This document shows, piece after piece, positions 3,459 through 6,083 of a DNA stretch of 6,083 bases. The stretch spans positions 1 through 6,083 of the forward strand of contig SKOL01000597.1 of assembly GCA_007120055.1 (NCBI GenBank), in the 5' to 3' direction. Both the position numbers and the translations under genes were made by a program. A model generated the notes under the pieces. It was not told the DNA's origin. It ran no database searches and was given only the letters and a program-made list of their open reading frames with translations. The stretch's first letter is position 1. Every line of letters starts with the position of its first letter. The stretch is from Anaerobacillus sp. (GTDB lineage: Bacteria > Bacillota > Bacilli > Bacillales_H > Anaerobacillaceae).

Positions 3459-3508
3459 AAAATTTTTAGTTTGAAAAGTTGATAATCAGTGAGGGGGAAG
3501 CCGGTACG

Positions 3509-4795
3509 ATGAGGAGAAGAGTGTTACTTATATTTTCAGTTTTAATATTAGCTTTTGCTAGTTTCATATCAATGCTAGGTTCTGATCATGTTGAAGCCAA
3601 CTCAGAGTTACAAAATAAAATTCAATCGATTCAAGAAGAGCGTTCTGGTAACCAAGCGGAACTAGAAGAAAAAGAAAGAGAAATACAAGCATTGGAAAGA
3701 GAAATGGAAAAGCTTGATAGTGAGCTTCGTACCATTGATCATGAAACGACAGTTACAAATCAAAAAATTCGTGAAAAAGACGAAGAAATAGAAAATACGA
3801 AAGAAGCGATTGAACAGTTAGTAGAAGAAATCCACGTGTTAGAAGAACGAATTGCTGAACGAGATGAGTTATTAAATAGTCGTGTTCGTTCAATGTATAA
3901 AAACGGAGGATCTGTCAATTTTATGGAGGTCATTCTTGGAGCTCGTAGTTTCGGTGATCTAATTAACCGAATCACTGCACTAAATACGATCGCTCAACAA
4001 GACCGAAATATTTTAGAAGCACACCATAATGATAAAAATGAACTTGAAGAAATAAAACAAGAAGTAGAAAATCAACTAATCACTTTAGAGGACCAGATGG
4101 TGGAACTTGAGCAATTAAAAGAAAAATTAGTTGAGCAAAGTAAAGAAAAAGGTCGTATACTTGATCGACTTGAGCTACAAGAAGGACAACTGTCTGCTGA
4201 ATTAGGCGATCTAGAAGGGGCAGATCAGATTCTTGCTGCACAAGAAAAAGCGATCCAGCAAGAGTTAGCAGCATGGGAGAGACGCCAGAGAGAATTAGAA
4301 GAACAGCGTAAACGTGAAGAAGAACGAAGGAAACAAGAGCAGCAAGCCTCTAGCAACAATAATAATTCAACTCCGACAGATACATCTGGAAGTATATTTA
4401 TGCGCCCGACAACGGGTGCGATTACATCCCCTTACGGACCGCGTTGGGGCAGATTCCATCACGGAATTGATATCGGTAAAGGCGGAAGATCAGGTGATGT
4501 TCACGTCGTTGCTGCCGAAGCTGGTACAGTTATTCGTTCTTATTACTCGGCGAGTTATGGTAATACCGTGATGATATCGCATAACGTCAATGGACAAGTC
4601 GTGACAACGCTTTATGCTCATCTTGAAAACCGTTTTGTTTCTGATGGACAACGTGTTGAAAGGGGACAACTTTTAGGTTATATGGGGAATACAGGTCGCT
4701 CGTTTGGACCTCATTTACACTTTGAAGTCCATGAAGGCCCATGGAACGTAGCAAAATCAAATTCTGTTAACCCGATGAACTACATCCCTAATTAG
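3509..4795 (+). CDS. Secreted coiled-coil M23 peptidoglycan hydrolase (PcsB/EnvC type)
   Basis: A 428-residue exported wall enzyme. A signal peptide (1-30, MRRRV then a hydrophobic stretch, likely cleaved at VEA/N) leads into two long Glu/Lys-rich coiled coils (about 32-115 and 165-280). These flank a hinge with RSMYKNG (127-133) and NFMEVILGARSFGDLINR (137-154), the PcsB-type regulatory region. After a Ser/Asn/Thr linker (281-296) comes an M23/LytM endopeptidase domain (300-428) with HHGID (His317, Asp321), YAHL (His371) and HLHFEV (His402, His404), the expected zinc ligands and catalytic His. It therefore looks active, unlike EnvC of E. coli. It lies next to ftsEX, whose FtsX loop activates such coiled-coil proteins elsewhere, so it is probably the cognate FtsEX-controlled hydrolase. 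Start ATG 3509 is chosen because GAGGGGG (3491-3497) lies 11 bases upstream and it gives a proper signal peptide; a TTG at 3479 has no ribosome site. Confidence 0.93.
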   Translation: MRRRVLLIFSVLILAFASFISMLGSDHVEANSELQNKIQSIQEERSGNQAELEEKEREIQALEREMEKLDSELRTIDHETTVTNQKIREKDEEIENTKEAIEQLVEEIHVLEERIAERDELLNSRVRSMYKNGGSVNFMEVILGARSFGDLINRITALNTIAQQDRNILEAHHNDKNELEEIKQEVENQLITLEDQMVELEQLKEKLVEQSKEKGRILDRLELQEGQLSAELGDLEGADQILAAQEKAIQQELAAWERRQRELEEQRKREEERRKQEQQASSNNNNSTPTDTSGSIFMRPTTGAITSPYGPRWGRFHHGIDIGKGGRSGDVHVVAAEAGTVIRSYYSASYGNTVMISHNVNGQVVTTLYAHLENRFVSDGQRVERGQLLGYMGNTGRSFGPHLHFEVHEGPWNVAKSNSVNPMNYIPN

Positions 4796-4800
4796 AAAAA

Positions 4801-4829
4801 TTGCTTATTAAAAAATAATCTTTTATAAT
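4801..4829 (+). promoter_or_regulatory. Candidate sigma-A promoter upstream of ctpB
   Basis: TTGCTT (4801-4806), 17-base spacer, then a perfect TATAAT (4824-4829). The -35 box is weak. The -10 box overlaps the left arm of the inverted repeat at 4822-4836, so it may be fortuitous. Transcription would start near 4836 and run through the repeat. Confidence 0.4.
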
Positions 4830-4891
4830 GGACAATAATTCAAAATTCAAAACTCAAAATCCAAAACCCAAAACCAATTGTCCATTGTAAA
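4822..4891. repeat. 15-bp inverted repeat enclosing CAAAA-rich quasi-repeats
   Basis: Positions 4822-4836 pair with 4877-4891 over 15 pairs with one G-U; the core AATGGACAAT/ATTGTCCATT is perfect. The 40-base interior (4837-4876) is made of five to six drifted units, ATTCAAA, ATTCAAAA, CTCAAAA, TCCAAAA, CCCAAAA, that change step by step from T-rich to C-rich. It codes for nothing visible. Origin is unknown: a small non-autonomous repeat or a slippage product are both possible. Confidence 0.7.
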
Positions 4892-4920
4892 TTCTAAATT
4901 TATAAAGCTCGTCATATACT
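4892..4920 (+). promoter_or_regulatory. Alternative sigma-A promoter just ahead of the ctpB structured leader
   Basis: TTCTAA (4892-4897), 17-base spacer, then TATACT (4915-4920), 5 of 6 to the -10 consensus. A start near 4927 would place the 5' end only a few bases before the closing helix of the structured leader (4932), which is what one expects of a riboswitch transcript. The -35 box is poor. The -10 also partly resembles a sigma-E CATA..A.T box. Confidence 0.38.
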
Positions 4921-4927
4921 TACAAAA

Positions 4928-5077
4928 GATAGAGAGAGGCGAACTCAAACAAAGTGTGTATCACGCTCTGCACCTATACGAAAGGGAATGAATATTACCT
5001 GAAGCTATAGAGTTAGGGAGGCGGTGAACGGTCACTATTTGAGTTAGCCTCTTTTCCGCAAAAAATGAGGTGAAAAT
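4928..5077 (+). ncRNA. Structured leader of ctpB, riboswitch-like, class not recognised
   Basis: A closing helix pairs 4932-4940 with 5047-5055 and 4942-4949 with 5038-5045: 17 pairs including the perfect AACTCAAA/TTTGAGTT and AGAGGC/GCCTCT, interrupted by one G-A mismatch. It encloses three hairpins: AGTGTG/CACGCT (4953-4967, loop TAT), CTATA/TATAG (4974-5010) with an inner AGG.AAT/ATT.CCT hairpin, and GGTGA/TCACT (5023-5036). The 3' strand of the closing helix (5047-5055) can alternatively pair with 5062-5071, which contains the ctpB Shine-Dalgarno. So the two states are mutually exclusive: closing helix formed and ribosome site free, or closing helix open and ribosome site masked. The pairing is read directly from the sequence; the switching role is inference. 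It does not match the riboswitch cores I know. Confidence 0.55.
5067..5073 (+). promoter_or_regulatory. ctpB ribosome binding site, potentially masked
   Basis: GAGGTGA lies 4 bases before ATG 5078 and fixes the start. GAGGT (5067-5071) can pair with GCCTC (5047-5051), and AAAA (5062-5065) with TTTT (5052-5055), forming a hairpin around CCGCAA. CACCT (4971-4975) in the leader could also pair with AGGTG, though five bases may be chance. Confidence 0.75.
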
Positions 5078-6083
5078 ATGTTAAATAACCGTACTGTCAT
5101 AGGATTTTGTATTATCCTAGCGTTATTAGTTGGCTCTGGTGGGACGTATGCAGCAATGTCGATCTTAGATATCGGTTCTTCTCCAAGCGTCGCGACTGAT
5201 AATGTCGTTCATACAGAAAATGAAGCCGATGGAGAAGTAGAAGAACTAACGATGGAAGAAGCAATGGAGAAATTTCAAAAAGCTTACGAAGTTATTCAAC
5301 GAAGTTACGTCGAAGAGGTTGATGGTGAAAAGCTTTTAGTTGGTGCGATTCAAGGTATGCTCGAAACTTTAGATGACCCTTATTCCGTTTATATGGATCG
5401 TCAAACAGCGAAACAATTTATGGATTCACTTGATTCCCATTTCGAAGGGATCGGTGCTGAAGTGAGCATGACGAATGGAAAAGTGACAATCGTTGCCCCA
5501 TTCCGCGATTCACCAGCTGAACAAGCAGGCTTAAGACCGAATGATCAAATTATTAAAATTGATGGAGAAGATATTGAAGGTTTATCGTTACACGAGGCCG
5601 TTTTAAAAATTCGTGGTGAAAAAGGCTCCGTCGTTACGTTAACGATCGAACGCCCAGGCGTGAATGACCCGATCGACTTTCCTGTTACGAGGGATACGAT
5701 CCCGATTGAAACGTTACGAACATCTCTCGTCGAACGTGACGGTGAAAAAGTTGGTGTCATTGAAATCACTTCATTTTCCGAAGCGACCGCAAGAGACTTT
5801 GCGGCCGAGCTAGAAAATTTCGAAAAAGAAGGAATTTCCGGTTTAATTATCGATGTTCGCGGTAATCCAGGCGGGTATTTAAGAAGCGTCCAAGAAATTG
5901 GCCACATGCTCGTTCCAGGCGGACACCCAATTGTACAAATTGAAGATCGCGAAGGTAATCGTGAACGTTATATATCTTCATTAAAAGAAGAAAAAGATTA
6001 CCCAATTATTACGTTAATTAATAAAGGAAGTGCATCAGCGTCGGAGATTTTAGCAGCTGCTTTAAAAGAAGCAGGCGGACACG
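5078..6083 (+). CDS. ctpB: S41 carboxy-terminal processing protease with PDZ domain, CtpB-like (partial 3')
   Basis: A membrane-anchored serine protease acting outside the cytoplasm. The first 335 residues are present and the gene runs off the window. A signal anchor (about 7-29) and a Glu-rich linker (47-60) precede the N-terminal helical region, where LLVGAIQGMLETLDDPYSVY (86-105) is typical of the family. A PDZ domain follows (about 115-205, with HFEGIGAEV and SPAEQAGLRPNDQIIKIDG), then the S41 core with GLIIDVRGNPGG (255-266) and NKGSASASEI (315-324). By alignment with Tsp/CtpB the catalytic Ser is Ser320; the Lys/Gln of the dyad lie beyond the end. In B. subtilis CtpB helps activate pro-sigma-K processing by cutting SpoIVFA in sporulation, and sits near ftsX. 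The symbol is inferred from similarity and position; a vegetative CtpA-like role is possible. Confidence 0.92.
   Translation, partial: MLNNRTVIGFCIILALLVGSGGTYAAMSILDIGSSPSVATDNVVHTENEADGEVEELTMEEAMEKFQKAYEVIQRSYVEEVDGEKLLVGAIQGMLETLDDPYSVYMDRQTAKQFMDSLDSHFEGIGAEVSMTNGKVTIVAPFRDSPAEQAGLRPNDQIIKIDGEDIEGLSLHEAVLKIRGEKGSVVTLTIERPGVNDPIDFPVTRDTIPIETLRTSLVERDGEKVGVIEITSFSEATARDFAAELENFEKEGISGLIIDVRGNPGGYLRSVQEIGHMLVPGGHPIVQIEDREGNRERYISSLKEEKDYPIITLINKGSASASEILAAALKEAGGH

Follow-up and report, generated by a model that had tools for sequence, protein, structure and literature searches.

The window, meaning the whole 6,083-nt stretch of DNA that was analysed, carries in this order two cytochrome c551-like genes, ftsE, ftsX, an envC/cwlO-like gene and ctpB, and the leader discussed here lies directly in front of ctpB. 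The DNA comes from a member of the Bacillaceae close to Anaerobacillus, as the murein hydrolase activator encoded upstream of ctpB is 70% identical to its A. isosaccharinicus homologue. A degenerate direct repeat with a period of 8 (TTTCCAAC/CTTCTAAC type) occupies positions 267-379, upstream of the first cytochrome gene. A second degenerate array of about 7 nt per unit (AAAATTC, AAAACTC, AAAATCC, AAAACCC) was seen by eye at 4840-4880, 3' of envC and 5' of the ctpB promoter, and is enclosed by an inverted repeat with arms at 4808-4836 and 4877-4905; a similar but different array is found at the same place in L067. The features used below are as follows, where L067-L069 are the orthologous loci nearest to the window by CtpB (74-75% identity) and L070 is the only other locus found whose leader has the long form in the corresponding position.

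3479..4795, + strand: murein hydrolase activator gene (EnvC/CwlO-like, M23), upstream of ctpB
4892..4898, + strand: possible -35 element TTCTAAA, 14 nt 5' of the -10 box; TTCTAnA-like in L067-L070 (by eye)
4913..4920, + strand: sigma-E-like -10 box, CATATACT
4926..4928, + strand: transcription start expected from the -10 box
4932..4940, + strand: closing helix P1, lower half, 5' strand (partner 5047-5055)
4942..4949, + strand: P1, upper half, 5' strand (partner 5038-5045)
4950..5037, + strand: lineage-specific interior, one rod by folding
5038..5055, + strand: P1, 3' strand, of which 5047-5055 doubles as the anti-SD strand
5047..5071, + strand: alternative nine-pair hairpin masking the Shine-Dalgarno (SD) sequence (5047-5055 with 5062-5071)
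5067..5072, + strand: SD sequence of ctpB, GAGGTG, kept in L067-L070
5078..6083, + strand: ctpB, S41 C-terminal processing protease, running off the end of the window

The original prediction had read this leader as an aptamer, closed by a 17-pair helix around three hairpins, with a translational expression platform. The folding computation returned the closing helix as claimed: P1 joins 4932-4949 to 5038-5055 through 17 standard pairs, two of them G-U (4932-5055 and 4934-5053), interrupted by one G-A mismatch (4941/5046), with pair probabilities of 0.62-1.0. The fold of 4928-5080 was matched by 1 of 200 dinucleotide shuffles (z -3.16), and for the leader alone 1 of 300 shuffles was as stable (z -3.8). 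The length of P1 by itself exceeds chance by little: when leaders of 230 nt were shuffled, the longest helices in 20 of them had 9-16 pairs, and the L077 and L091 leaders contain unrelated 19-pair helices at other places. The three-hairpin multiloop can fold, at -39.9 kcal/mol, but it is not the optimum, which is a single long rod at -42.8 kcal/mol. The proposed nine-pair hairpin over the SD sequence was also confirmed (5047-5051 with 5067-5071 and 5052-5055 with 5062-5065, U5066 bulged), with an energy of -6.1 kcal/mol when 5045-5077 is folded alone. It had been described as mutually exclusive with the closing helix, which is true of the lower nine pairs of P1, the only ones it displaces, while the upper pairs stay compatible with it. 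When the SD-masked state is forced, the energy is -33.2 kcal/mol, 9.6 kcal/mol worse than the closing-helix state. By these energies, P1 would outcompete the weak SD hairpin, and the ribosome site would then be free of that hairpin; the ensemble nevertheless places the SD bases in other weak pairs, with a pairing probability of up to 0.79 at 5070. The original prediction had recognised no known class in the core, and an Rfam 15 scan of 4880-5100 gave no match up to E 10, and nothing in Rfam 15 overlapped the window leader up to E 5.

A sensing leader on ctpB had been considered unusual. A structured leader on ctpB is in itself not unusual: 42 of the 71 orthologous loci examined, many of them close kin, carry a simple 13-pair hairpin (GGCATYGCAY..TGCCTTTT) upstream of ctpB. 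The 71 distinct loci, with repeats removed, comprise the 15 Bacillaceae loci of one genome scan together with the best 30 of 41 and the best 30 of 44 matches in two further samples; thirteen distant relatives (L016-L028) and two duplicate loci (L041 and L052) stand outside this set. In the alignment of the 29 distinct simple-hairpin sequences, pairing holds in 95.5% of cells, and 5 of the 13 pairs are changed on both sides, a number reached by 2 of 500 shuffles. The covariation score was reached by none of 500 shuffles, although kinship alone can lift a set of sequences above its shuffles without any structure. Two wobble pairs are retained, G-U at alignment columns 13-32 in 24 of 29 sequences and U-G at columns 11-34 in 19 of 29. 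No Rfam 15 match was found for the simple hairpin in the 13 loci scanned, and we found no published account of a family-wide ctpB leader hairpin in the open-access literature searched.

Of 397 genomes sampled from the order, 210 were matched by a covariance model of the simple hairpin (E up to 0.001). The 30 best matches all adjoin ctpB. Another 20 matches were picked by hand, and 18 of these are likewise next to ctpB, the other two (L157 and L161) being without it. In all 60 loci with ctpB, the hairpin scores better on the strand that encodes ctpB; one of the 30 best matches (L118) is on the opposite strand. A dispersed repeat is unlikely, as most of the genomes listed have one or two matches and those checked are mostly next to ctpB; some double matches within a genome are the same palindrome read on both strands. 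In L003, the hairpin is not the terminator of an upstream gene, since the upstream reading frame is divergent. We take this frame to be an acetyltransferase, and beyond it lies a repetitive stretch (L003 1244-2122) that is open in two frames. A pseudoknot between loop and tail, suggested by L078, found no support (4601 of 10000 permutations as good over 49 leaders).

The sequence of the simple hairpin is more conserved than a roadblock alone would require, and this suggests a binding partner. Recognition by protein is the main rival explanation for the simple hairpin. A sporulation factor would recognise the wobble-containing stem and set ctpB translation or decay in one compartment. Strong sequence conservation and the retained wobble pairs speak for such a factor, whereas the window and L070 have a stem but lack the sequence motif of the simple hairpin. 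We know of no protein partner of the ctpB leader hairpin, and we consider this explanation unlikely.

The placement of the hairpin was compared with that of the promoter. Of 60 loci with the hairpin, 47 have two CATA boxes 12-18 nt apart upstream, compared with 67 of 3000 random stretches; among 30 leaders without the hairpin (the window and L070 included), 16 have the two boxes, compared with 78 of 1450 controls. The promoter is therefore more widely spread than the hairpin. The Figure 4 legend of PMC517825 gives the sigma-E layout as a -35 element of 8 bp, a gap of 12 and a -10 element of 10, and the two-box pattern, as read from sequence, fits this legend. A passage of the same paper places ctpB under sigma-E control in B. 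subtilis. CtpB is called forespore-produced in a passage of PMC12251134, and on that wording more than a single promoter may be involved. In the long-gap leaders L003, L005, L006, L008, L009 and L011-L013, the hairpin is followed on its 3' side by another conserved block, which reads GAATAAGAACATAAAAGCTACAAAAATTAACGGTATG exactly or almost so and is possibly a second, forespore-type promoter. The motif GTACAAGC often stands between the two promoter boxes in ctpB leaders such as L001, L003, L053 and L071. The consensus of the SpoIIID site contains ACARNY; GTACAAGC resembles such a site, and a SpoIIID site would suit a sigma-E promoter under SpoIIID. The 31 stretches with a 15-base promoter pattern in viral contigs were taken as chance.

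In the window, the TATACT at 4915-4920 had been proposed as a -10 box ahead of the helix. A promoter box does lie there, but it is better read as the sporulation-type CATATACT at 4913-4920, which is 19 nt from the start of P1 and 25 nt from the matching GGC (4938). The window's upstream region does not match the strict two-box pattern, its -35 element being poor. In 41 of 54 distinct leaders, the distance from the box to the GGC of the stem has a median of 21 nt (interquartile range 17-26, range 16-62), with the stem 35-62 nt behind the box in some. In these 54 leaders, with start codons placed by a Shine-Dalgarno rule, the distance from hairpin to start codon runs from 15 to 237 nt. Because the hairpin stays near the promoter box while its distance to the start codon varies, it probably belongs to the 5' end of the mRNA and not to the ribosome site.

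The stem might also act as a terminator-like attenuator, in which hairpin and short U-run would end many sigma-E transcripts early and read-through would set the ctpB level. In an intrinsic terminator, at least about six U follow the stem without interruption. The ctpB leader has an A-run, a stem and a U-run in common with intrinsic terminators and leader attenuators, the A-run and T-run flanking the stem, and in 49 leaders the 8 nt 3' of the stem include 5 T (28 leaders), 6 T (15), 7 T (5) or 4 T (1). Unlike in intrinsic terminators, the U-run is short (TTTTCC in the window), and the element stands directly behind the promoter and, in L003, beside a divergent frame. Inspection by eye shows that a different base commonly interrupts the T-run after four T; in the window, P1 ends in TTTT and CCGC comes next. 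The hairpin also ends only 15-22 nt from the start codon in 16 of the 54 leaders, and an efficient terminator would there silence ctpB, because this gap leaves little room for a second promoter. We regard attenuation as quite improbable.

The relation of the window leader to the simple hairpin rests on place and flanks, because the window, like L070, has no match to the hairpin covariance model up to E 0.1. The nearest loci, L067-L069, carry the simple hairpin at the place where the window has P1. Their flanks resemble those of the window, with AGCTCGTCATATACT before and TTTTCCG(T/C)-AAAAAATGAGGTGAAAATATG after, apart from single-base differences; AGCTCGTCATATACT, in the window's -10 region, is common to L067-L070. 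The window element thus stands behind a promoter box and before ctpB, between flanks common to L067-L069, and these three closest orthologues have a short loop instead of its interior. By position, the foot of the simple hairpin has its predicted homologue in the 5' strand of the lower half of P1 (4932-4940). On these comparisons, the window leader looks like an enlarged version of the conserved ctpB hairpin, extended to a rod in this lineage.

The long form of L070 was compared with that of the window. The arms of P1 lie at -148 and -23 relative to ctpB in L070 and at -146 and -23 in the window. Both leaders pair at 15 of the 16 positions compared, with seven substitutions between them and one A-U pair replaced by G-C, and arms swapped between the two still pair at 14 of 16 and 15 of 16. 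Random mutation equals this retention in 293 of 50000 trials, or in 3810 of 50000 when only transitions are allowed. P1 is kept in L070, with a single pair changed on both sides. From these two sequences, we consider the support for conservation of P1 moderate. Another 28 leaders lack the simple hairpin, and none of them has its longest helix at the place of P1. Beyond P1, just two three-pair stems align between the interiors of 85-90 nt.

The enlarged rod might, however, be without any function of its own, an ancestral hairpin having been extended by neutral drift or by an inserted palindrome. This is the main rival explanation for the rod and, in our view, a somewhat unlikely one. In its favour, only the foot and the flanks are clearly common to the window and L070, and the three nearest genomes have a short hairpin. 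Against this, both long leaders have a rod that is more stable than nearly all shuffles (1 of 300 as stable for the window, 0 of 300 for L070), and no copies of either long insert were found in the related genomes searched (7 and 9). Away from the homologous place, all matches to the long leaders in these 7 and 9 genomes were short or no larger than the flanks. The window leader gave only short matches in 15 relatives (best E 0.03), and no DNA similarity to it was found in plasmids and phages. By a CtpB tree and a four-gene tree, the window and L070 may or may not be sisters; the four-gene tree places the window nearer the short-hairpin genomes, with weak support (74/68), and the long form may have had one or two origins.

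With these leaders at hand, the original reading of an aptamer with a translational switch is not supported. In such a switch, the 3' strand of P1 would alternate between the closing helix and the SD sequence, in response to a ligand or to 5'-strand cleavage. The window leader does have a closing helix and an alternative SD-masking hairpin in common with translational riboswitches, and comparable hairpins are possible in L070 (nine pairs, -8.3 kcal/mol, covering part of the SD sequence) and in L092 (eight perfect pairs, -11.0 kcal/mol). Own SD pairings are also slightly better than swapped ones, with means of -5.88 and -5.59 and 139 of 5000 permutations as low, although this is a weak test on 10 related leaders. 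In contrast, the alternative pairing is weak (-3.2 to -5.9 kcal/mol) in 5 of the 8 simple-hairpin leaders tested, and the energy gap towards the open state in the window is large. Unlike riboswitches, the ctpB leader shows no conserved core and no Rfam match; if it were a riboswitch, its core should stand out in the comparison of the window with L070, and none is seen because their interiors are not reliably alignable. Nor does a hairpin at least 100 nt from the start codon, as in 20 of the 54 leaders, suit control of the ribosome site. SD masking has left a trace outside the window and is kept as a minor rival, a very improbable one.

We instead favour a 5'-terminal structure that protects the ctpB mRNA from decay at its 5' end, although we hold this to be about as probable as not. 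A sigma-E-type promoter would produce a transcript from about 4926, presumably during sporulation, whose first structured element would lie a few nucleotides from the 5' end: a 13-pair hairpin in many Bacillaceae and, in the lineage of the window, a stem that has been extended to a rod of about 125 nt with 17 pairs at its base. This base helix would prevail over the weak SD-masking hairpin and leave the ribosome site free of it. The structure would then block 5'-dependent decay of the RNase J1 type and give a longer-lived ctpB mRNA during spore formation. The stem-loop of the aprE leader is a 5' mRNA stabiliser of Bacillus; like the ctpB leader, it is a stem-loop near the 5' end (here the expected one), upstream of a free SD sequence. 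Unlike aprE-type stabilisers, the simple ctpB hairpin is conserved in sequence and covaries across many species at one sporulation gene, and the window has a long rod. Stabilisation of Bacillus mRNAs by 5' roadblocks is described in a passage of PMC3997798.

A broader reading is that the leader is an undescribed cis-acting RNA of ctpB, present in about half of the sampled genomes and read by a sporulation-specific factor, which would set the amount of CtpB made from the sigma-E transcript and so help to time sigma-K activation, with the long rod replacing the hairpin in the window lineage and doing the same job. As a whole, we regard this reading as speculative and distinctly unlikely. According to a passage of PMC12251134, CtpB fine-tunes the processing of pro-sigma-K during B. 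subtilis spore formation. The family-wide ctpB leader hairpin is the result of greater interest here, and a conserved RNA at the 5' end of the ctpB mRNA would add an RNA layer to the timing of sigma-K.
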